Shown piece after piece: positions 4,859-15,710 of a stretch of 64,000 nt of DNA. The notes below the pieces were generated by a model. It searched no databases, was not told where the DNA came from, and saw only the letters and a program-made list of their open reading frames with translations. This DNA is from an uncultured Nitrospiraceae bacterium (GTDB lineage Bacteria; Nitrospirota; Thermodesulfovibrionia; Thermodesulfovibrionales; Dissulfurispiraceae), in the NCBI GenBank assembly GCA_903822005.1, contig CAIJNL010000009.1, positions 1 to 64,000 of the forward strand, written 5' to 3'. The position numbers were made by a program, and so were the translations under genes. Numbering within the stretch: position 1 is the stretch's first letter; each line of letters begins with the position of its first letter.

Positions 4859-7480
4859 ATGAAAGGTTCCGAGATCAGAAGCACCTACCTTGAATATTTT
4901 AAGTCCAAAGGCCATGAAGTCGTAAGCAGCTCTTCGCTGATACCGAGGAACGATCCGACATTGCTCTTTACCAATGCGGGCATGGTGCAGTTTAAATCGG
5001 TATTTCTTGGCGAAGAAAAGCGTGAATATTCGCGCGCAACAACTTCACAGAAATGCATGAGGGCCGGAGGCAAGCACAGTGACCTCGAAAATGTGGGCCA
5101 TACCGCGCGCCATCACACCTTTTTCGAGATGCTCGGAAACTTCTCTTTTGGCGATTATTTCAAGAAAGACGCGATACTCTTTGCATGGGAGCTGCTGGTT
5201 GAACGCTTTGGCCTGCCAAAAGACAAGCTCTGGGCGACCGTTTTTCAGGACGATGATGATGCCGCAAAGCTCTGGCCTGAACTGACAGGCATCCCGGCTG
5301 CCCGTGTAATCAGGCTCGGCGCAAAAGACAACTTCTGGCAGATGGGTGACACAGGCCCCTGCGGCCCATGCTCCGAGATCATTATTGACCAGGGTGAAGA
5401 GCTTGGCTGCGGCAAGCCCGACTGCAAGGTAGGCTGCGACTGCGACAGGTATCTCGAATTATGGAACCTCGTCTTCATGCAATTTAACAGGGATGAATCA
5501 GGCAAGCTGACGCCGCTGCCCCGGCCGAGCATTGATACGGGCATGGGGCTTGAGCGTATTGCTGCCGTAATGCAGGGCAAGAAGAACAATTACGATTCTG
5601 ATCTCTTTGAGCCGATAATATCGGCCATAAGCACCATGTCCAAAGTAACATACGGGAAATCCCCGGAAACCGACATTTCGATCAGGGTTATAGCCGACCA
5701 TCTGCGCTCAGTCGCCTTCCTTACCGCAGACGGCCTGATGCCTTCAAACGAGGGCAGGGGATATGTGATGAGACGCATCATCAGAAGGGCATCTCGTCAT
5801 GCACGGCTTCTCGGACTCGAAGGTGCGGCGCTTTCAAGGCTGATGGGTTCAGTATCAGACGCCATGGGTGACATCTATCCGGAACTTATACAGGAACGCG
5901 AGCGTTCAGCAAAGGTCCTGATGTTTGAAGAGGAACGCTTTACCAAGACACTCGACCAGGGCATGAGGCTTCTCGATGATGTAATGTCAAAGCTGAAAAA
6001 AACCGGAGAGAAGATCATTCCCGGCGACGAACTGTTCAAGCTTTACGACACCTTCGGATTCCCCCTCGATCTTTCGAGGGACATTGCGATGGACAACCAT
6101 CTGCAGATCGATGAGGACGGCTTTAACCGGGAGATGCAGATGCAGCGTGAGCGGGCAAGGGCGTCGTGGGTTGGCGAGGAAGAGGCGATTGCCACGATAT
6201 ACAAGGAGCTCAAGTCAGAGATCGGCGAGACGGTATTTGCAGGTTACGACACGCTCGAAGCTGACTGCGTTATCAGGGCGATACTGAAAGAGGGAAAGGT
6301 TGTGGATGAGGCGGCAGCGGGAGATGAGGTTGAACTCATTCTCGACAAGACGCCTTTTTATGGCGAGTCAGGCGGCCAGACCGGAGACATCGGCCTTATT
6401 TATGGCGGTGCATTCGAGGCAGTTGTCAGGAATACCAAAAAGGAAGCCGGAATTCATGCGCATGTATCGACGATCAAGACCGGAAGCCTGAAGGTCTGGG
6501 ACAAGGTTAAATGCGAGGTTGACGGCGAGTCACGAAAGGCGACTGCAAGGAACCATACTGCTACTCATCTGCTCCATACCGCGCTTAGAGCGGTCCTGGG
6601 CGAGCATGTAAAACAGGCCGGATCATTCGTATCGCCTGAAAGACTGCGTTTCGACTTTTCGCACTTTTACCAGGTCGACCGGGCAGAACTCGATTCACTT
6701 GAGGACCTTGTCAATGCGGAGATTATAGCCAACAAGCCGGTAAGTACCGAGGTATCTGACATCCAGGATGCCCTTAAATCCGGGGTCATTGCCCTTTTCG
6801 GTGAAAAATATGGCGATAGCGTACGAGTTGTTAAAGTGCCTGGCTTCGGTGCCGAGCTTTGCGGCGGCACTCATTCCAATGCTACCGGCGACATAGGCGT
6901 ATTCGCCATTATTTCCGAGGGCAGCGTTGCTTCGGGCATCAGAAGGATAGAGGCCTTTACAGGCAAGGCTGCCTTTGAATATCTGCGGCAGAAGCGGGAC
7001 GATCTTAAAAAGATGGCCGAGATGCTCAAGGCTGACCAACCCGTCGAAAGGCTCGAAAAGGTCCTGTCTGACATGAAGGACATGGATAAAGAAATTGAGG
7101 TATTGAAAGGCAAGCTCTCATCCCATAGTTCTGCTTCATTGCTCGATCAGGCCAGAGAGGTCAACGGGGTCAAGGTGCTCTCATGCCGTGTTGATAATCT
7201 CGAGCAGAAAGATCTGAGGGTGCTTGCAGACAATATCAGGGACAGGCTTGGGTCCGGCATTGTTGTTGTGGCATCCGCTAAAGACGGACAGGCTTCGATC
7301 ATTGCCATGGTGACCAAAGAGCTTGTCAAGCAGTATAGCGCGGGCGAGATATTGAAGAGCGTTGCGGCGCTGTGCGATGGAAGAGGGGGCGGCAAGCCAG
7401 ACATGGCGCAGGGCGGCACCAAGGAGCTGGACAAGCTTGATGCAGCGATGGAAGCGGTTTATTCGATAGTCAAGAAGTAA
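4859..7480 (+). CDS. alaS: Alanyl-tRNA synthetase
   Basis: Charges tRNA-Ala. The 873-aa protein is full length: class II catalytic core at the N-terminus (RSTYLEYFKSKGHEV, then FFEMLGNFSFGDYF), central tRNA-recognition region, editing domain with zinc ligands HTATH and CGGTH, and the C-terminal DHHA1-type oligomerisation domain with GGGGKPDMAQGG-like glycine-rich segment. GAGAGAGG precedes the ATG. A 63-nt gap with no recognisable T-box separates it from recX. It ends at a strong terminator. A diverged second copy of its last 19 codons (with stop) lies at 9267-9329 behind hipBA. Confidence 0.98.
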   Translation: MKGSEIRSTYLEYFKSKGHEVVSSSSLIPRNDPTLLFTNAGMVQFKSVFLGEEKREYSRATTSQKCMRAGGKHSDLENVGHTARHHTFFEMLGNFSFGDYFKKDAILFAWELLVERFGLPKDKLWATVFQDDDDAAKLWPELTGIPAARVIRLGAKDNFWQMGDTGPCGPCSEIIIDQGEELGCGKPDCKVGCDCDRYLELWNLVFMQFNRDESGKLTPLPRPSIDTGMGLERIAAVMQGKKNNYDSDLFEPIISAISTMSKVTYGKSPETDISIRVIADHLRSVAFLTADGLMPSNEGRGYVMRRIIRRASRHARLLGLEGAALSRLMGSVSDAMGDIYPELIQERERSAKVLMFEEERFTKTLDQGMRLLDDVMSKLKKTGEKIIPGDELFKLYDTFGFPLDLSRDIAMDNHLQIDEDGFNREMQMQRERARASWVGEEEAIATIYKELKSEIGETVFAGYDTLEADCVIRAILKEGKVVDEAAAGDEVELILDKTPFYGESGGQTGDIGLIYGGAFEAVVRNTKKEAGIHAHVSTIKTGSLKVWDKVKCEVDGESRKATARNHTATHLLHTALRAVLGEHVKQAGSFVSPERLRFDFSHFYQVDRAELDSLEDLVNAEIIANKPVSTEVSDIQDALKSGVIALFGEKYGDSVRVVKVPGFGAELCGGTHSNATGDIGVFAIISEGSVASGIRRIEAFTGKAAFEYLRQKRDDLKKMAEMLKADQPVERLEKVLSDMKDMDKEIEVLKGKLSSHSSASLLDQAREVNGVKVLSCRVDNLEQKDLRVLADNIRDRLGSGIVVVASAKDGQASIIAMVTKELVKQYSAGEILKSVAALCDGRGGGKPDMAQGGTKELDKLDAAMEAVYSIVKK

Positions 7481-7500
7481 GCCCGTTAAAATAACATTTG

Positions 7501-7536
7501 GCGCATATCGCAGGTTTTGCGGTATGCGCTTTTTAT
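7501..7536 (+). terminator. Intrinsic terminator of the recA-alaS run
   Basis: GCGCATATCGCA pairs with TGCGGTATGCGC (one G-T wobble) across a short loop, followed by TTTTTATT. It lies 20 nt after the alaS stop codon. Confidence 0.88.
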
Positions 7537-7580
7537 TCCACATAAATGCCGATGTAATTAGCTCTGCCGATTAAGGCGCG

Positions 7581-8864
7581 TTAAAGCAGATTATGGTGTG
7601 CCCTTATCCTTTCTATTTCGTGCTGATTAACAGCAGCTTCCGCAGCAAAATCAGGCCAGGCTGATACCGCGTCTTTGACCTGTTTAAGTACTTTAGGCGC
7701 AGACCCTATGCCAAAGCGATCGGCAACCGATAGCAGATCAGCGCGAGTAATTCCCCTAAAAACACCATTGACCGCCATAAGATGCTGATACGTCCACTCG
7801 CCCTCAGGATTGTAAGCATGCGTTACATCATACGCCGAAGCAAGCTGCCATTCCCGGCCCTCACGCAGGACAAAGGATATGTTTTTGGTGTGGTCATCAC
7901 AGTTTGCTGCCATCACATTAAACGCCATGCGGCGGAAAGCTTCCTCCGCAGAGGTATATCCCAGTTGCAGGCGCGCTATCGTCAAAAAAAGCTGGCTGTA
8001 ATCATGGCTTGCTTTCTGCTTGTAATCAAGATGTGTCATTGCACAGAGCGTCTGCAGATGATGTTTTGTGTTGCCGTCCCGGTCAAAGCGGCGCGTCATA
8101 AAGTGTGCGCGGCCATTTTCCTCCATTAGTCGGCATGGCGACATGGCAATGCCAGCCGCACGGGCCATCAGGGAATATGCGTATTCTATACGTCCGAAAT
8201 CCTGTGACACTCCCAGTTCCCGGTCTGCACCCATGCCGTCAAACTTGAGCAGCCAATGTTCAAACCCCTGCTCCACGTCAAACTGTCCGGGTCTGATCTC
8301 ATCCGTTATCGGGTTCCATGCAATAGCCGCCTTGGCCCTGGCTCCGCCTGCCGATGTCCCTACCTGTATTATCTGAGACAGCGCAGCCCTGGTCATAGTA
8401 TCTGAGCCAATCTCCCCGCGCACTGCATGGCGAGCGCTTTCGATCAGTCGCGAAAGAGTAATGGCCGTGCTGCTATGAACGGAAGGACTGCGGACCGGTT
8501 TGAACTCCAGTGCTCCCATCCCGCGTTTGCCCATGTAGGCAAGACGATCCAGTGCGGTAATATCTGACTTTTCTATGCCTCTTGCAGCCATCCATGCATC
8601 AATCAGGCTGTTGCCGAAATCGTCTGGAAGTGCATCGGCCACCATTGCAGGCAGACGCTTAAAGGTCAGTTCCGGCAGGTCCGTAAATACAAACGGTTCA
8701 TGTGCCTTTGCAAGAGGCATGGTGAGAGGTGCAAGCTCAATCCCTGTCGTAATAAAGGCAGGGTCATATTCGAAAACATAATAGCCTAGCTTTGGATCAC
8801 GCGCCACCGCACCGACTCGTTTTCCCCATATGCGAACCTCTATGGCATGAACAGGCTTATACAT
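7581..8864 (-). CDS. hipA: HipA-type toxin, Ser/Thr kinase of a type II toxin-antitoxin pair
   Basis: A HipA-fold kinase of 427 aa. In E. coli HipA phosphorylates glutamyl-tRNA synthetase and causes dormancy; the target here is unknown. Seen in the sequence are the N-subdomain (couple_hipA region, residues 1-110, including MVADALPDDFGN), the nucleotide-binding loop GTSAGGARAK at 169-178, the catalytic loop NCDDHTKN at 321-328 and the metal-binding Asp in AYDV near 346. All key residues appear intact, so the kinase should be active. The start overlaps the end of hipB by 8 bp, typical of translational coupling. It is transcribed against alaS and belongs to an accessory block. Confidence 0.93.
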   Translation of the reverse strand: MYKPVHAIEVRIWGKRVGAVARDPKLGYYVFEYDPAFITTGIELAPLTMPLAKAHEPFVFTDLPELTFKRLPAMVADALPDDFGNSLIDAWMAARGIEKSDITALDRLAYMGKRGMGALEFKPVRSPSVHSSTAITLSRLIESARHAVRGEIGSDTMTRAALSQIIQVGTSAGGARAKAAIAWNPITDEIRPGQFDVEQGFEHWLLKFDGMGADRELGVSQDFGRIEYAYSLMARAAGIAMSPCRLMEENGRAHFMTRRFDRDGNTKHHLQTLCAMTHLDYKQKASHDYSQLFLTIARLQLGYTSAEEAFRRMAFNVMAANCDDHTKNISFVLREGREWQLASAYDVTHAYNPEGEWTYQHLMAVNGVFRGITRADLLSVADRFGIGSAPKVLKQVKDAVSAWPDFAAEAAVNQHEIERIRAHHNLL

Positions 8865-9168
8865 TACCAGCTCTCTTCACTCGGGAGGCGCGCTGTCGTG
8901 CCGGTTTGGCCTTAAGCATCTGCAATGGGCTGATCGAAACCTCTGGAGACAGGGAATGCAGCCATTCGGTCCGGCCAAGCGCCCGGAGTATCTTTATGAA
9001 CGAACTGAGTGTTGCCCCTTTGCCACCTTCCAGGTTTTTTATAGCGTTCAGGGCAACGCCTGCCTGATCAGCCAGCTGCCGCTGATCAATGTTCTGCCGC
9101 AGCCGCAGATTGCGCAGCTGTTGCCCGATGGTCACTTCTAATTCCTCTGTCGTCTTACTTTCAATCAT
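8857..9168 (-). CDS. hipB: HipB-type antitoxin, XRE-family DNA-binding protein
   Basis: A 103-aa protein with a lambda-repressor-like helix-turn-helix at about residues 14-66 (QQLRNLRLRQNIDQRQLADQ, then VALNAIKNLEGG). It should bind and neutralise HipA and repress the hipBA promoter. The basic C-terminal tail (KAKPARQRASRVKRAG) is longer than in E. coli HipB and may contact HipA or DNA. Gene order (antitoxin first) and the overlap with hipA are classic. An AT-rich inverted repeat overlapping a likely -10 box lies just upstream. Confidence 0.92.
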   Translation of the reverse strand: MIESKTTEELEVTIGQQLRNLRLRQNIDQRQLADQAGVALNAIKNLEGGKGATLSSFIKILRALGRTEWLHSLSPEVSISPLQMLKAKPARQRASRVKRAGNV

Positions 9169-9183
9169 AGAAGACCTTATTAA

Positions 9184-9215
9184 GGCTATTAATAATATAA
9201 GTATATATTATAGCC
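9184..9215 (-). promoter_or_regulatory. Probable hipBA promoter with overlapping operator
   Basis: GGCTAT at 9184-9189 is mirrored by ATAGCC at 9210-9215, with AT-rich arms between that pair imperfectly. On the minus strand TATAAT (9212-9207) lies within the repeat, with TTTATA 16 bp upstream as a -35. A second small palindrome, CCTTATTAAGG, lies at 9175-9185 next to the start codon. Autoregulation by HipB at such sites is known for the family; the exact operator here is inferred. Confidence 0.5.
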
Positions 9216-9266
9216 CTAAAAAAGTCTATATAAAGTATTAGTCTAATAGAAACTTCATCTGTAAGC

Positions 9267-9329
9267 ATGATGGAACTGGACAAGCTCGATACCGGTAAGG
9301 AAGCTGTTTGCCCGATAGTTAAGAAGTAA
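9267..9329 (+). pseudogene. Displaced, diverged 3' end of an alaS gene
   Basis: The frame reads MMELDKLDTGKEAVCPIVKK-stop, against ELDKLDAAMEAVYSIVKK-stop at the end of the intact alaS. Over 57 nt ending with the stop codon I count 45 identical bases (79%), and many differences are at third codon positions. Similarity stops abruptly just upstream (about 9271) and is not seen after the stop. The differences look like those between alleles of two species rather than random decay. It lies on the same strand as alaS, with hipBA in between, so I read it as an attachment-type or recombination scar. Confidence 0.75.
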
Positions 9330-9412
9330 CCATTTTATATCGATAAATCAGTAAGTTAAATTTGAAGAGTTAAAGTTATTTTTGGTAATAGCGTATCCTG
9401 TCGCGGTAACGG

Positions 9413-10141
9413 TCAGACGTTTTTTATCGCGCCAAAGGCCGCAAAGCACGAATTTTTATGTAAAAGCTCAACATGAGCAAAACCAACTTTCCGAAGAAGA
9501 TCCAGTTGATAAGTTACCGGCCTCGGCGAATCTTCCTTATCGATATAGTCAAAGACTTTAGCCCTGTAATCTTCTCCTCCGAATGAGCAAAGGTATTCAC
9601 CATACCGCTCCCACATCATGGATTGAACAGGGCCGGTTTCATGAGATACCAGGTCTGTAATCCAGACGCTGCCCCCGGGTGCCGTAAGGCGGTAGATTTT
9701 GCTGAATGCTGACTCCCAATCCTGATCATCACGCAGATGATGTAAAACGGCAGCGGCAATGATGACATCATAGCTTTGTTCGGGCAGATCTGCTTCACGA
9801 AAATCGCCCTGAAATGTCCTTATTGTGCCGGTATTGACCGCTGAAATCCGTTCACGGGCTTTCTTAAGCATCGGCAAACTAAGATCTACAAGATCGCAGT
9901 CAAAAGGCGCAGCATATTGAGAAAGTTTTATTGTGTTGTTGCCGGCGCCGCAGCCGATATCCAGAGCTCTGCGGATGCTCCTGGTAGACTTAAACGCCGC
10001 CTGGGTAATCAACTCCATTGCCAATGGCGCGTCGATAGTTGCAGTCTGACCGGTTTCGAGGTTTGAAAATCGTTCAACGTCAATGTCAAAGCGCGCTTTT
10101 ATTTCGGATACGGATGATTTCTTTTTCAATGGTCTGTCCAT
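9413..10141 (-). CDS. Class I SAM-dependent methyltransferase
   Basis: A 242-aa methyltransferase with SAM motif I at RALDIGCGAGNNT, the acidic end of strand 2 in DLVDLSLPML, motif II-like YDVIIAAAVLHHL, and a post-motif APGGSVWI. The C-terminal part lacks a recognisable substrate domain. The family (Methyltransf_25/12-like) covers small molecules, lipids and quinones, so the substrate cannot be named. I chose ATG at 10141 because GAGAGG stands before it; the longer track start (10183) has no such site. It is an orphan within the accessory block, with a GNAT gene upstream on the same strand. Confidence 0.85.
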   Translation of the reverse strand: MDRPLKKKSSVSEIKARFDIDVERFSNLETGQTATIDAPLAMELITQAAFKSTRSIRRALDIGCGAGNNTIKLSQYAAPFDCDLVDLSLPMLKKARERISAVNTGTIRTFQGDFREADLPEQSYDVIIAAAVLHHLRDDQDWESAFSKIYRLTAPGGSVWITDLVSHETGPVQSMMWERYGEYLCSFGGEDYRAKVFDYIDKEDSPRPVTYQLDLLRKVGFAHVELLHKNSCFAAFGAIKNV

Positions 10142-10211
10142 AATTCCTCTCTGGCTGCTAAAAATTAAGCAAAGAAGTATCACACATATCGTTTTTGTTG
10201 GTCAATCAGGG

Positions 10212-10703
10212 TTACAGCACTTTCAGATAAACAATCATTGCCTCGCCGTCCGGCAGGTAATTTTCAATTTCTCCTGCAGGCTTAAAGCCCTTGTTTTGAT
10301 AAAACATTCTGGCTTTTTCAAAGGTTGGAGAGATATAAGTTTCTATAAACATCTTCTTAAACCCCATTTTTATTGCAAGAGAGACCATCTCATCAAATAA
10401 TTTGCTGCCGAGTCCTTTGCCATGCAAATCAGGATCGAGTGCAAACCAGGCGAGCCATACATTTTCTTTAGGCCCCCAGTTATATTGATGAAGACCGGTG
10501 ATACCCTGAACTTTCGATCCGTTTTTCCAGACAAAATAATACCTGCCGTCATCAAGATTGTTTTCAGCGCACCCAAAATGAAAATGCATGGTCTTGTCTG
10601 CCCAATCAGCTTCATCCTGGTTCATAGCTCTTCGAATAAGGTCCACAGCTTCGGGTATGTCGCCTTTATTCATAGGGACTAAATTAATATTTATAGGTGT
10701 CAT
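10212..10703 (-). CDS. GNAT-family N-acetyltransferase
   Basis: A 163-aa GNAT protein. The acetyl-CoA-binding motif A is visible as LDPDLHGKGLGSKLFDEM (Q/RxxGxG/A type), followed by a beta-strand KKMFIETY and the usual helix FEKARMFYQNKGF. The acceptor cannot be predicted. ATG at 10703 is preceded by GGAAAG and preferred to the track start four codons earlier. It is about 70 bp upstream of the methyltransferase on the same strand; whether they form an operon is uncertain. Confidence 0.87.
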   Translation of the reverse strand: MTPININLVPMNKGDIPEAVDLIRRAMNQDEADWADKTMHFHFGCAENNLDDGRYYFVWKNGSKVQGITGLHQYNWGPKENVWLAWFALDPDLHGKGLGSKLFDEMVSLAIKMGFKKMFIETYISPTFEKARMFYQNKGFKPAGEIENYLPDGEAMIVYLKVL

Positions 10704-10740
10704 AATTCTTTCCACATCAGTGTGACATCCATTGCGTCAA

Positions 10741-11541
10741 TTATTGCCGCGATGTTGGAGTGAGCCCGGCCTTGGAAATCGTTGGGGCCGCCTCGGGCGA
10801 TGAGAGGTAGCGGATTAGCGCCTCAGCAGCTTCCTGGTTCCTGACTGAGTTGGCGAGCGCTGCTGAAAAAAAGGTGTCTTGCTGAAGCTGTGCGGGAATC
10901 CTTCCTACGAATGTAATCCCCTTCACATGTATCAATTCGCTCACCTGTTGAAAGCCGATCTCAGCTTCGCCGCGCCCAACAACGTCAGCGACATTCTCGC
11001 CGGACGGCGGACCCTTAATCATGCGGCTCTTTGGCGATACCTGTTCTTTAACTCCAAGCCTTGTGAACAGTGTGGTCGACAGATATATGCCGCTGGCGCT
11101 GTCGGAGTACGCGATCGACTTTGCATCGAGAAGCGTTCGCCGAAGAGCGTCAACGGTGCTGATATCAGGCTTCGCTGCCCCGGCTTTCACGACCATGCCT
11201 ATTTCCGAACGGGCAAGGTCGACCTTGGTGCCGGCACGCACCGACCCCTGCCGGGTCAGGTCATCTATCGAAGCGCCGACCATAATCACAACATCGGTGG
11301 GCTCGTTGCGCTTGAGCCGATTTGGGATAGCCTCCGGGGAATTCCCGAGTGAGGGGCCACGTGTTGTGATCAGGCGGTGGCCAGTGGATTTTTCGAAGGC
11401 CGGACGCAATTCAGAATAAGCCTCATAAAAGCCTGCAGAGATCATCGCGTGTATGTCTGCCGCTTGCGCCGTTCCCGCGAGCAAGAGGGCTGCTACAGCT
11501 ATAAATTTTGAGAACCATCGAACGAGTGATCTTGTTTTCAT
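10741..11541 (-). CDS. Periplasmic substrate-binding protein, ModA-like, without a transporter
   Basis: A secreted 266-aa protein with a clear signal peptide (basic start, hydrophobic stretch, GTAQAA cleavage region). The mature part has the two-lobe binding-protein layout of the SBP_bac_11/molybdate-binding family, with PTDVVIMV and an AEIGFQQVSEL segment close to the C-terminal third. No permease or ATPase gene is near, so uptake cannot be inferred; this orphan family is common in Proteobacteria. Codons look richer in GC than those of the flanking genes, which suggests transfer. It is 37 bp upstream of the GNAT gene. Confidence 0.8.
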   Translation of the reverse strand: MKTRSLVRWFSKFIAVAALLLAGTAQAADIHAMISAGFYEAYSELRPAFEKSTGHRLITTRGPSLGNSPEAIPNRLKRNEPTDVVIMVGASIDDLTRQGSVRAGTKVDLARSEIGMVVKAGAAKPDISTVDALRRTLLDAKSIAYSDSASGIYLSTTLFTRLGVKEQVSPKSRMIKGPPSGENVADVVGRGEAEIGFQQVSELIHVKGITFVGRIPAQLQQDTFFSAALANSVRNQEAAEALIRYLSSPEAAPTISKAGLTPTSRQ

Positions 11542-11741
11542 AAGGCTCCTTCGGAACGCTTTTTTAGTGCATTATTATACCAAGTTAGTTTTTACTGGGG
11601 AAAGTATGCCAAAGAGATTCATAGGGTCGTTAGAAAGCCCCACAAAACAATTCTGCGGTATAGCATTAAAGTAGACTGTACCCTTTATGCCTTTAAACAA
11701 GCCTTGCCTTTTTATTTCTTATGTCGCCAACCGTATGGTTC

Positions 11742-12152
11742 TCATTGATTAACAAATCGGATACTGACTTCAATAGTCTCGGCGTTGCTCGATTCGGGTA
11801 TGGGAGGAAATCGCTTGACTGCTCGAATAGCATTCAGTGCAGCTTCATCGAACTCTGCATTTCGGGATGATTGATCAATGACTATTTTCCGGATACTGCC
11901 GTCTTTATTGATTTTTAACGTCACTAGGGTTATGAGTCTTTCGTTTTGTGAAAGCTCCCGCGGAGATTTCCATGACGATTTTACTGTCTCTAACGTATTC
12001 ATGTTATACGCCCGCTGATCCTCTATCAATGTGTTAGTTTGTACCGCCGGGGCAACCGTGTTTGAACAAGCAGCAGACATGACTGAAAAGGATAGAAGAC
12101 AGAAAAACAGCAAGCATTTGACGTTTGCGTAATTATCTGTGCAGTGTCTCAC
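11742..12152 (-). CDS. Lipoprotein with a TonB C-terminal-like domain
   Basis: A 136-aa protein starting at GTG 12152, with GGGAGG 8 nt upstream. The N-terminus is a lipoprotein signal (hydrophobic stretch ending in SAAC). The rest, from about residue 55, resembles the TonB C-terminal fold: a strand LITLVTLKINKDGSIRKIVI, helix DEAALNAIRAVKRFPPIP and a final strand EVSIRF. It lacks the transmembrane anchor plus proline-rich spacer of true TonB and stands without ExbB/D, so a role in energy transduction is doubtful; it may bind outer-membrane or peptidoglycan partners. Confidence 0.72.
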   Translation of the reverse strand: MRHCTDNYANVKCLLFFCLLSFSVMSAACSNTVAPAVQTNTLIEDQRAYNMNTLETVKSSWKSPRELSQNERLITLVTLKINKDGSIRKIVIDQSSRNAEFDEAALNAIRAVKRFPPIPESSNAETIEVSIRFVNQ

Positions 12153-12270
12153 AAATGACCTCCCAATATTATCGTTAAGTCAACGCTAGCAATTCATATA
12201 GGTACACGTCCCAATTAATCTTTGTCGCTGCGTTTTTTAAAAAATTGGATGTGTATCTATTAATCCTTTA

Positions 12271-12462
12271 TTACTGTTTAATGTCAGGAATCTCCAGCCC
12301 CTTACAAATCTTTCTGGCAAGCTTATCTGGTATTTCGACATGGCGCGGTACAGCCTCTACAGCACCTGTTGTTGGATTCATCCAAAGTGAATGGGAGGAG
12401 CCTTCTCTTTTAAGGTAGCACCCAAACCGCCGCAAATGACGAAGGAGGGTTTGTCGCTTCAC
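12271..12462 (-). CDS. hicA: HicA mRNA-interferase toxin
   Basis: A 63-aa HicA toxin with the double-stranded-RNA-binding-like fold. Diagnostic features are the N-terminal KRQTLLRHLRRFG helix, the GSSH motif with the catalytic His at residue 24, and the strand AVEAVPRH. HicA cleaves mRNA when not held by HicB. It begins with GTG overlapping the hicB stop by 4 bp. Confidence 0.92.
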   Translation of the reverse strand: MKRQTLLRHLRRFGCYLKREGSSHSLWMNPTTGAVEAVPRHVEIPDKLARKICKGLEIPDIKQ

Positions 12463-12674
12463 GAGACGGCAACTACTTCACTAATTGCATCATCAGGCAG
12501 GCCACGCATGGCATCCTCGCGGCGGTCTTCAAGTATGAGAGAAATAGCCTCGGCCAGATTGGTTTTGCATTCTTCAATTGTCTTTCCCTGCCCATTTGCG
12601 CCCGGCACTTCAGGGCAATAGGCAATATACCAATCGCAGTCTTTTTCAATAATTGCGGTAAATTCATTATGCAT
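12459..12674 (-). CDS. hicB: HicB antitoxin
   Basis: A 71-aa HicB with the partial RNase H-like fold: FTAIIEKDCDWYIAYCPEVPG, then GKTIEECKTNLAEAISLILEDR. The start is ATG 12674, preceded by GGAGG with a 7-nt spacer; the track start at 12716 is 14 codons too long. It lacks a C-terminal DNA-binding domain, so autoregulation may be weak. Order hicB-hicA is reversed from the more common hicA-hicB. It is the last gene of the accessory block, divergent from cydAB. Confidence 0.92.
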   Translation of the reverse strand: MHNEFTAIIEKDCDWYIAYCPEVPGANGQGKTIEECKTNLAEAISLILEDRREDAMRGLPDDAISEVVAVS

Positions 12675-12831
12675 GGCATTCCTCCGGCAACTTAAACGGT
12701 TTCTGAGATAAAGCAAAACCTGTCATTTACTGCAATCTTTCAATATACTTCTCAATACTACCCTAAATTCCATTAAAATATCATCCTGATCCGTTGTCTT
12801 TACCCGATTTCTTCGTATTTTGATAGTGATA

Positions 12832-12870
12832 TTGACAAATCATTTAATTAAGAGTAAATTAGTCCTAATT
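12832..12870 (+). promoter_or_regulatory. cydAB promoter with an overlapping palindrome (likely Rrf2 operator)
   Basis: TTGACA at 12832-12837 and TAAATT at 12855-12860 are 17 bp apart. A perfect palindrome AATTAG-TC-CTAATT covers 12857-12870, overlapping the -10 and likely start point. A repressor bound there would block transcription. The Rrf2 regulator encoded at the end of the same operon is the obvious candidate; that link is inferred. Confidence 0.65.
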
Positions 12871-12903
12871 AGATTTATACTTTACAAAAAGGAGGAATCA
12901 GCG

Positions 12904-14268
12904 ATGGATGTCTTAATGCTAAGCCGTTTGCAGTTTGCGGTCACAGCAGGGTTCCATTTTATCTTCGTACCCCTGACCCTGGGCCTTGTAATGCTGGTTG
13001 CCTACATGGAAACCATGTACGTGCGCACCGGCGACGAAATGTATCTAAGGATGACCAAATTCTGGGGAAAGCTCTTTTTAATTAATTTTATTCTTGGTAT
13101 CGTCACAGGTATTACGCTTGAATTCCAGTTCGGCATGAACTGGGCGGAATATTCAAAATACGTGGGTGATATCTTTGGCTCCCTGCTGGCAATTGAGGCC
13201 ACTGCCGCTTTCTTTCTCGAATCCACCTTCATCGGTCTCTGGGTATTCGGCTGGAACAAGATATCAAAGAAACTCCATGCGGCATCGATCTGGATCGTGG
13301 CTATTGCTGCTAACCTCTCTGCCCTCTGGATACTTCTTGCCAACGGCTGGATGCAGCACCCGGTCGGGTATGTTATAAACAACGGCCGCGCCGAAATGAC
13401 CGATTTCCTGGCCCTTGTGACAAACGGACATGGCTGGTCAAAATTCGTTCACACTGTAGCATCCGGTTATGTAGTTGCCGCTTTTTTTGTGATGGGCATC
13501 TCTGCATATCATATCCTCCGCAAACAGAATCTCAGGTTTTTTAAGACCTCATTTAAAATTGCCGCCACTTTCGGCCTGCTGTCTACCCTGCTTGTTTTCG
13601 CAAGCGGAGATCATCACGGGGTAGAGGTTGCGAAGACCCAGCCTGCCAAGTTCGCGGCCATGGAATCGGTATGGGAAACACAGAAGGCTGCCACGTACCA
13701 CCTGATTGTCGTGCCCGATTCTGACAACGAGAGAAACAGCATCGAGGCACTGGGCATTCCGAAGCTAATGAGCCTGCTCGCCTTTCATGACCCTGATGCA
13801 GAGATCAAAGGGCTGAAGGAGTTTCCAAAAGAGCTGAGGCCTCCGGTCTTTATTACCTTCGCAAGTTTTAAGGGAATGGCCGCGCTCGGCATGCTCTTTT
13901 TGCTTCTGACCGCCATTAGCTGGTATCTTTCGCGAAAGGACAGGCTTGAATCATGGCCTCTGTTCTTGCGCATTATGCTTTATTCGATTCCATTGCCCTA
14001 TATTGCCTGTCAGATAGGCTGGATTGTCGCCGAGGTCGGCCGTCAGCCCTGGATTGTTTATGGGGTGCTCAAGACCTCTGACGCCGTATCCAAATCAGTA
14101 TCTGCAGGGCAGGTCATATTTTCCCTGGCCGGTTTTACGCTGCTGTATGGTTTCCTTGCCATAGTGGACTTCTATCTCCTTACCAAATTTGCCAAACAAG
14201 GTCCGGATGGGCCGGAAGAATCCGCTATAACGAATACGAAGCCCTCAGCGGGCTCACAGGAGGCATAA
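12904..14268 (+). CDS. cydA: Cytochrome bd ubiquinol oxidase subunit I
   Basis: The catalytic subunit of cytochrome bd oxidase, which reduces O2 with quinol in the inner membrane without pumping protons. The 455-aa protein starts at ATG 12904 behind AAAGGAGG; the track start is 28 codons too long. Haem ligand candidates are His18 (AGFHFIF) and His183 (FVHTVASGY), and the GRQPW motif is present near the C-terminus. Length is below E. coli CydA (522 aa), which places it in the short Q-loop group. cydB follows after 1 nt. In anaerobes this enzyme usually scavenges oxygen. Confidence 0.96.
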   Translation: MDVLMLSRLQFAVTAGFHFIFVPLTLGLVMLVAYMETMYVRTGDEMYLRMTKFWGKLFLINFILGIVTGITLEFQFGMNWAEYSKYVGDIFGSLLAIEATAAFFLESTFIGLWVFGWNKISKKLHAASIWIVAIAANLSALWILLANGWMQHPVGYVINNGRAEMTDFLALVTNGHGWSKFVHTVASGYVVAAFFVMGISAYHILRKQNLRFFKTSFKIAATFGLLSTLLVFASGDHHGVEVAKTQPAKFAAMESVWETQKAATYHLIVVPDSDNERNSIEALGIPKLMSLLAFHDPDAEIKGLKEFPKELRPPVFITFASFKGMAALGMLFLLLTAISWYLSRKDRLESWPLFLRIMLYSIPLPYIACQIGWIVAEVGRQPWIVYGVLKTSDAVSKSVSAGQVIFSLAGFTLLYGFLAIVDFYLLTKFAKQGPDGPEESAITNTKPSAGSQEA

Positions 14269-14269
14269 A

Positions 14270-15280
14270 ATGGAATATCAGATAATCTGGTTCATATTAT
14301 GGGGAGTCTTGTGGTCCGTATATTTCATGCTCGACGGATTTGATCTTGGGGCAGGCATGTTACAGCGTTTTATTACAAAAAATGAAAAAGAGCGTCAGCA
14401 GGTAGTAAGCAGCATAGGGCCGGTATGGGACGGCAACCAGGTCTGGCTTATCACTGCAGGCGGAGCCACTTTCGCGGCCTTCCCGACAACATACGCGCTG
14501 ATGTTCAGCTACCTTTACACGGCGCTTCTGCTTATCCTGTTTGCCTTAATTATCAGGGGCGTTGCCCTTGAATTGAGACATAAAGAACCTGGCGAAAGAT
14601 GGCGCAAAAACTGGGACATAGCCTTTTTTATAGGCAGCATGCTGCCCGCGCTCCTGTTTGGCGTTGCCTTTGGAAACATCTTCCAGGGACTACCGATGGA
14701 TGAGATGGGTTATCACGGCACGCTCTTTACACTCCTGAATCCCTACGGTCTCATTACCGGCGTGCTCTTCGTAATGCTGTTCCTCATGCATGGTGCGCTA
14801 TGGCTTGCCCACAAGACATCTGATGAACTGAGCGACCGCTGTACTGGTTTCGCTATTAAGCTATGGATCCCTCTTGTTGTTGTGGCCGTCACTTTTTTGT
14901 GTGCGACTTACTTTGCGACAAAGCTCTATGACAATTTCCTTAAGGCGCCGATATTCCTTATGTTCCCGCTGATCGCCGTATCGGCGCTGTTCATAATGCG
15001 CTTCTTTATTGGTAAGGGACAGATATTAAATGCTTTTTTTGCTTCCTGTGCCCTTATCGTGATGGTTTGCTTCACGGGTGTAACCGGACTATTCCCGAAC
15101 CTTATACCGTCTAGTATAAATCCGGCGTACAGTCTAACTATATATAATTCCTCATCTAGCATCTATACGCTGAAGATAATGACTGCTGTGGCCTTTATCT
15201 TTGTCCCGATAATTATCGCTTATCAGATCTGGGCATACCGGGTCTTCAGGCAGAAGACAGATTCTGCCGAAGGATATTGA
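14270..15280 (+). CDS. cydB: Cytochrome bd ubiquinol oxidase subunit II
   Basis: The partner subunit of CydA (336 aa), a membrane protein with eight or nine helices. The N-terminal WFILWGVLWSVYFMLDGFDLGAG stretch is diagnostic, as is GPVWDGNQVWLITAGGA. The gene starts 1 nt after the cydA stop with AGGAGG in the cydA tail, and is clearly co-transcribed. No cydX-like micro-ORF or cydCD was seen nearby. Confidence 0.96.
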   Translation: MEYQIIWFILWGVLWSVYFMLDGFDLGAGMLQRFITKNEKERQQVVSSIGPVWDGNQVWLITAGGATFAAFPTTYALMFSYLYTALLLILFALIIRGVALELRHKEPGERWRKNWDIAFFIGSMLPALLFGVAFGNIFQGLPMDEMGYHGTLFTLLNPYGLITGVLFVMLFLMHGALWLAHKTSDELSDRCTGFAIKLWIPLVVVAVTFLCATYFATKLYDNFLKAPIFLMFPLIAVSALFIMRFFIGKGQILNAFFASCALIVMVCFTGVTGLFPNLIPSSINPAYSLTIYNSSSSIYTLKIMTAVAFIFVPIIIAYQIWAYRVFRQKTDSAEGY

Positions 15281-15314
15281 AGGGGAAGGGCAGCATAACG
15301 GGCGGTAGATAAAA

Positions 15315-15710
15315 ATGCTTTCCATCAGGAGGGAAACAGACTACGCCATACGCGCAGTATATTATCTCGCACAAAAAAAGGGTGCTGTTACTATGGTGGA
15401 CGAGATAGCGCGCGAGATGCATATACCCAAAAGCTTTCTGGCCAAGATTGTTCAGAAGCTTAACAGGGCAGGGCTGGTAAAATGCTTTGTCGGCATGAAG
15501 GGAGGATGTTCTCTGGCTGAAAAACCTGAGGGCATCTCCTTTCATGACGTTATTGTCGCTATTGAAGGGCCGCTAGCAATGAATATATGCACTGTAAACA
15601 AGGAAGAGTGCTCGCTAAGCGCGGATTGCGTGGTCCATCCGCTATGGGTAAGCGTGAGGGGTGATGTTGAAAAAATACTTAAAAGCAGGAATTTCGGGAC
15701 ATTAACATAG
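15315..15710 (+). CDS. Rrf2-family transcriptional regulator with an iron-sulfur-type cysteine motif
   Basis: A 131-aa Rrf2 protein. The winged helix lies in the first ~80 residues (TDYAIRAVYYLAQKKG, PKSFLAKIVQKLNRAGLV, KGGCSLAEKPEGISFHDVI). Three cysteines in the order C-x7-C-x5-C (ICTVNKEEC, ADC) match the cluster ligands of IscR/NsrR-type sensors, so it may sense O2, NO or redox state through an Fe-S cluster. It is the third gene of the cydAB operon and probably controls it through the palindrome at 12857. Whether it is closer to IscR or NsrR cannot be told from the sequence alone. Confidence 0.9.
   Translation: MLSIRRETDYAIRAVYYLAQKKGAVTMVDEIAREMHIPKSFLAKIVQKLNRAGLVKCFVGMKGGCSLAEKPEGISFHDVIVAIEGPLAMNICTVNKEECSLSADCVVHPLWVSVRGDVEKILKSRNFGTLT

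Follow-up and report, generated by a model that had tools for sequence, protein, structure and literature searches.

The window, the 64,000-nucleotide stretch of DNA analysed here, carries an intact alaS gene for alanyl-tRNA synthetase (positions 4859–7480, plus strand, 873 aa), as seen from its open reading frame and from full-length alignment with alaS of relatives. The best match of its product is the AlaS of the only congener, G001, with 81% identity. Directly after alaS an intrinsic terminator is found (7500–7535, plus strand), formed by a stem of 13–14 bp and a following T run (−21.4 kcal/mol, z −3.2). The next two genes are on the minus strand. hipA (7581–8864) encodes a HipA-family toxin kinase of 427 aa with the Pfam domains HipA_C (1.9e-47) and Couple_hipA (2.4e-19), and the motifs NCDDHTKN and AYD are recognized by eye in its product. 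hipB (8857–9168), which overlaps the start of hipA by 8 nt, encodes a HipB-like antitoxin with an Xre-type helix-turn-helix (Pfam HTH_3, 7.8e-8; NCBIfam couple_hipB is below its cut-off). A toxin with both the HipA_C and the HipA N-terminal domains and an upstream, overlapping Xre-type antitoxin gene identify the pair as HipBA. The control region of hipBA (9164–9234, minus strand) is AT-rich, with 24% GC, and contains promoter-like sites, the best of which is TTTATA-N16-TATAAT (10/12 matches). hipBA would be an ordinary predicted HipA-kinase toxin-antitoxin pair, run from its own divergent promoter.

The relatives of the window genome that carry names in GTDB records are Thermodesulfovibrionales/Nitrospirota. 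In relatives the order is alaS, a phasin-like gene and ubiB, often followed by rrf2 and cydAB. The window has kept the right side of this arrangement, with cydA, cydB and an Rrf2-type regulator (12820–15710, plus strand), genes that also follow in relatives; these three were named by sequence, not by profiles. The place of the phasin-like gene and ubiB is occupied by hipBA, by a relic of the alaS end (see below) and, at 9330–12819, by genes for a methyltransferase, a GNAT protein and a ModA-like binding protein and by small ORFs. Neither ubiB (PF03109) nor the phasin-like gene, which adjoin alaS in most relatives whose locus is intact, is found anywhere in the window genome, and the same family search detects UbiB in G001 and G018. 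G001, the nearest relative, has no hipA and possesses phasin-ubiB. The segments 7481–7580, 9169–9270 and 9330–9412 show no similarity above control to the DNA downstream of alaS in relatives. At 12271–12716 on the minus strand, two small overlapping ORFs resemble HicA/HicB by eye (no match in NCBIfam), and a second toxin-antitoxin pair may therefore be present in the replaced stretch.

We regard hipBA as an acquisition, because no close hipA is found in the other genomes of the family, where the only homologue, in G014, has 36% identity, and because relatives of about 61% identity are located on proteobacterial plasmids. A further relative (63%) is present in the viral contig L062. The homologues on plasmids, in the phylum and in viral contigs were considered as donors and rejected, as with 44–63% identity they are too distant.

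Two copies of the alaS end around hipBA

The last 57 nt of alaS (7424–7480, plus strand), at the position where relatives carry a promoter-like element that is degenerate here, occur again beyond hipBA at 9273–9329. As originally predicted, the two copies lie on the same strand and in the same frame, with 45 of 57 bases identical and no gap, at an offset of 1849. Adjacent offsets give 6–15 matches, and the runner-up site on either strand of the window gives 32. The second copy, a decayed alaS 3' end with its stop codon, spans about 9272–9329, and the similarity stops sharply on both its upstream and its downstream side. The only features between the two ends are the terminator of alaS and a hipBA operon that looks intact. 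The absence of an integrase between them, also part of the original prediction, holds, and the four Phage_integrase genes of the genome sit on other contigs. The second copy might resemble the alaS end by chance or belong to a common repeat, and the latter had been named as a finding that would overturn the prediction. This explanation is refuted: a search of 9262–9335 over the 3.2 Mb genome returns only the segment itself and alaS as matches of note (E 6.1e-8), and a second, independent case exists in another genome (see below). The match next after alaS, 18 nt on G000:C2, was dismissed, as it lies inside an unrelated regulator. An ATGATG stands in frame before the second copy and opens a mini-ORF of 20 codons (9267–9329), which ends at the alaS-type stop codon.

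The differences between the two ends had been described as dominated by third codon positions, as between alleles of different species. A closer inspection shows that this was overstated. The 12 differences are distributed 7:3:2 over third, second and first codon positions, and the excess at third positions is not significant (p 0.066). In five of the nine changed codons the copy at 9273 encodes a different residue, with Y to C, M to K and S to P among the replacements. Furthermore, the copy at 9273 reaches 8.5 bits in a profile built from 143 other alaS tails, in which the working end, of 18 residues, reaches 24.7 bits. On account of these residue changes and of the low profile score, we read the copy as a decaying relic and not as a live allele of a different species. 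The expectation that hipBA would be hard to lose at this site is not borne out either, because a deletion between the two tails would leave alaS stop-terminated and nearly normal, with few residues changed.

A second occupied alaS end in the order

A survey of alaS 3' ends with up to 5 kb of downstream DNA was carried out across the order (145 regions, 137 without duplicates). Apart from artefacts, two of the 145 regions pass the scan for a second tail, the window and locus L084 of genome G122, with scores of 58 and 35 for the passing loci vs 20 or below in the reverse-strand control. Two kinds of match were rejected: that of L137 (G099) lies inside a phasin coiled-coil in AT-rich DNA, and those of L119 and L175 to a "tail" in L203 arise from a stretch of N there. 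A third occupant with a second tail is not present among the 137 loci. In G012 (L045) a DUF4160 and DUF2442 gene pair is located in the 574 nt between alaS and phasin; it was considered as a possible third occupant and set aside, as no second alaS tail accompanies it. In L032 (G009:C90, a 5 kb contig) a second alaS-like C-terminal fragment is seen at about 501–635, with a weak match of 49%, and is possibly contamination.

In G122 the order is alaS, a ParD-like ORF, ParE (Pfam 2.2e-17), the second alaS tail, phasin and ubiB. The second tail together with about 2 kb downstream is identical at 1962 of 2007 positions (97.8%) to the uninterrupted locus of G121 from the same genus. The alaS gene itself is 92–100% identical to that of G121 in each block of 40 codons, up to a core of 25 bp, TTGAAAAACTGGACAAGGCGCTTGA; past the core, the end of the gene and the leader switch to resemble those of G120 and G119. 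Both junctions lie within this one core, which is nearly identical at the two borders, and the inserted unit measures 660 bp core to core. To be noted, G122 is a metagenome-assembled genome with an estimated contamination of 9%, and a chimera may account for its left junction; the right junction between toxin and tail is not explicable by shared sequence. As judged from these identities, G122 shows a native tail displaced downstream and an alaS that has been given a new end. The comparison of alaS loci that had been suggested as a check has thus yielded, for G122, an uninterrupted sister with the spare type of tail. The proposed supply of a new end with displacement of the old one stands for G122, where the tail is that of the sister and the alaS end is G120-like, and extends to the window by analogy. 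We infer that displacement in the window was the same process at an older stage, with hipBA as cargo.

A local duplication was also weighed for the window, in which replication slippage or break capture copied the tail in place, hipBA was joined simultaneously and alaS kept its own end. The two window tails indeed share more bases with one another (45/57) than with the congener G001 (37/57 each), which agrees with such an event. G001 is equally far from both copies, with a 4:4 split at the sites where they differ, and favours neither tail as the older one. At synonymous third positions, a very small sample, the spare tail matches the congener three times and the working tail once, which speaks against a duplication in place. 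In G122, moreover, alaS now has a clearly foreign end, and the spare tail is clearly native. We consider local duplication improbable.

The border repeats bear also on a site-specific integration, by which a larger tyrosine-recombinase element with the alaS 3' end as attB would have replaced the end from its attP and lost its integrase later. Such elements have as their hallmark a restored gene end together with a repeat of the tail at either border (PMC5704250). Both G122 junctions fall in a single core, and the inserts of the window and G122, which belong to unrelated toxin-antitoxin types, begin no more than about 9 nt from the homologous alaS position. Against it, no recombinase is encoded in the inserts, which measure 660 and 1849 bp from core to core, the four integrase genes of the genome all lie outside the window contig, the 137 loci contain only these two occupants with a second tail, and a published alaS attachment site was not found among open-licence papers. 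Thus, of the integrated element first proposed, the repeats at both borders are present and an integrase-bearing element is not found in the inserts. Site-specific integration appears rather unlikely to us, and insertion by recombination at the alaS end is the preferred reading.

Promoter-like motif in the last alaS codons

The conservation of the alaS end was analysed at the codon level, with correction for the amino acids, in 37 diverse full-length alaS genes and 817 windows of eight codons. The seven most synonymously conserved of these windows are all located in the last ~18 codons. In particular, the codons of two Asp residues rank first and second among the 59 Asp columns of alaS. The conserved bases in the tails form the motif TGGACA-N17-TAYGAT, for example at 261–289 of L085. 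Where both Asp residues are present and a phasin gene is nearby, the first is GAC in 51 of 51 loci and the second is GAT in 51 of 51, with a background of 55:45 over the whole gene. The motif is found in 64 of 90 loci with an adjacent phasin gene vs 1 of 41 without, and within the own family in 16 of 19 vs 0 of 8, both counts being taken over related genomes that are not independent. A pattern search in 177 genomes finds the motif in 82 of them, about once per genome, with two copies in G122 only. There the second tail starts about 5 nt before TGGACA, and both boxes are kept next to phasin.

Within single genomes the motif is no better than in tails with shuffled codons, as promoter-like DNA is already favoured by the peptide LDKALEAVYD, and TACGAT is a mediocre −10 box. 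The promoter claim is carried by the codon bias at group level and by the association with phasin, both of which are affected by shared ancestry. On this basis, the last alaS codons probably hold the promoter of the phasin-ubiB operon, and the duplicated tail would be that promoter. The window genome gives zero matches to the motif pattern. The working tail reads TTGATG-N17-TATTCG at the corresponding position (7/12), and the second tail is devoid of the motif. In the window the promoter role of the tail would belong to its history, because neither tail keeps the motif.

Proposed history and comparison with known systems

The account we consider reasonably probable as a whole is that recombination placed a toxin-antitoxin unit without recombinase at the alaS 3' end, and that the tail was duplicated in a useful way. 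A small unit free of recombinase genes would enter the 3' end of alaS. The gene would be complete, with its end on the upstream side of the unit and the second copy of that end downstream. This second tail would be useful at first, because the putative phasin-ubiB promoter overlaps with the end of the alaS coding sequence. A copy of the tail beside phasin-ubiB would keep the operon expressed while the toxin-antitoxin pair parts it from alaS. In the lineage of the window, phasin and ubiB would have been lost later; alaS has its terminator, and the spare tail would be decaying without function.

More tentatively, the alaS end in this order may be a sequence with a dual role, in coding and as a promoter, at which toxin-antitoxin units without recombinase land repeatedly; this is possible rather than probable. 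Such units would bring a borrowed alaS end, recombine in the tail, renew the end of alaS and take up a promoter, and the old tail would stay behind to serve the displaced operon as its promoter.

For chromosomal toxin-antitoxin pairs without visible mobility genes, one site with two different pairs, the same flanking gene end and, for one of them, an empty sister would offer a concrete route of spread. The suggested route runs through recombination within a gene end that also serves as a promoter, and it predicts where further insertions occur. In addition, the conserved C-terminus of the protein may partly reflect a DNA signal.

Integrative elements at the 3' ends of housekeeping genes, with the gene kept intact, are well known (PMC5704250), and for tRNA targets the duplication of the tail, about 50 bp, is the standard element border (PMC7371117). 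The present units resemble the integrative and mobilizable elements of the tyrosine-recombinase type at gene 3' ends (PMC5704250) in the direct repeats of the target end that flank the insert and in the intact gene. Such elements often carry toxin-antitoxin genes as well. The present units differ in the lack of mobility genes such as a recombinase or relaxase, in their size of just 0.66 and 1.85 kb, and in their target, as alaS is not found among known targets in open-licence papers. Nothing direct on alaS as a target, or on recombinase-less toxin-antitoxin units bounded by duplicated gene ends, was found in the open-licence literature.

The hipBA pair is similar to the HipBA systems with HipA_C / Couple_hipA kinases in domain content, in the order of antitoxin and toxin, in the gene overlap and in its own predicted promoter. 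It differs from known HipBA in its divergence from the solved HipA/HipT proteins (best E 1.7e-4) and in its setting between two alaS ends. The putative phasin-ubiB promoter is comparable to the intragenic promoters that lie in the 3' end of one gene and serve the next operon, with Sigma70-like boxes in the coding sequence, codon conservation and a link to the presence of the next operon. Unlike in other intragenic promoters, the gene end that carries the putative promoter is here also duplicated around toxin-antitoxin inserts.
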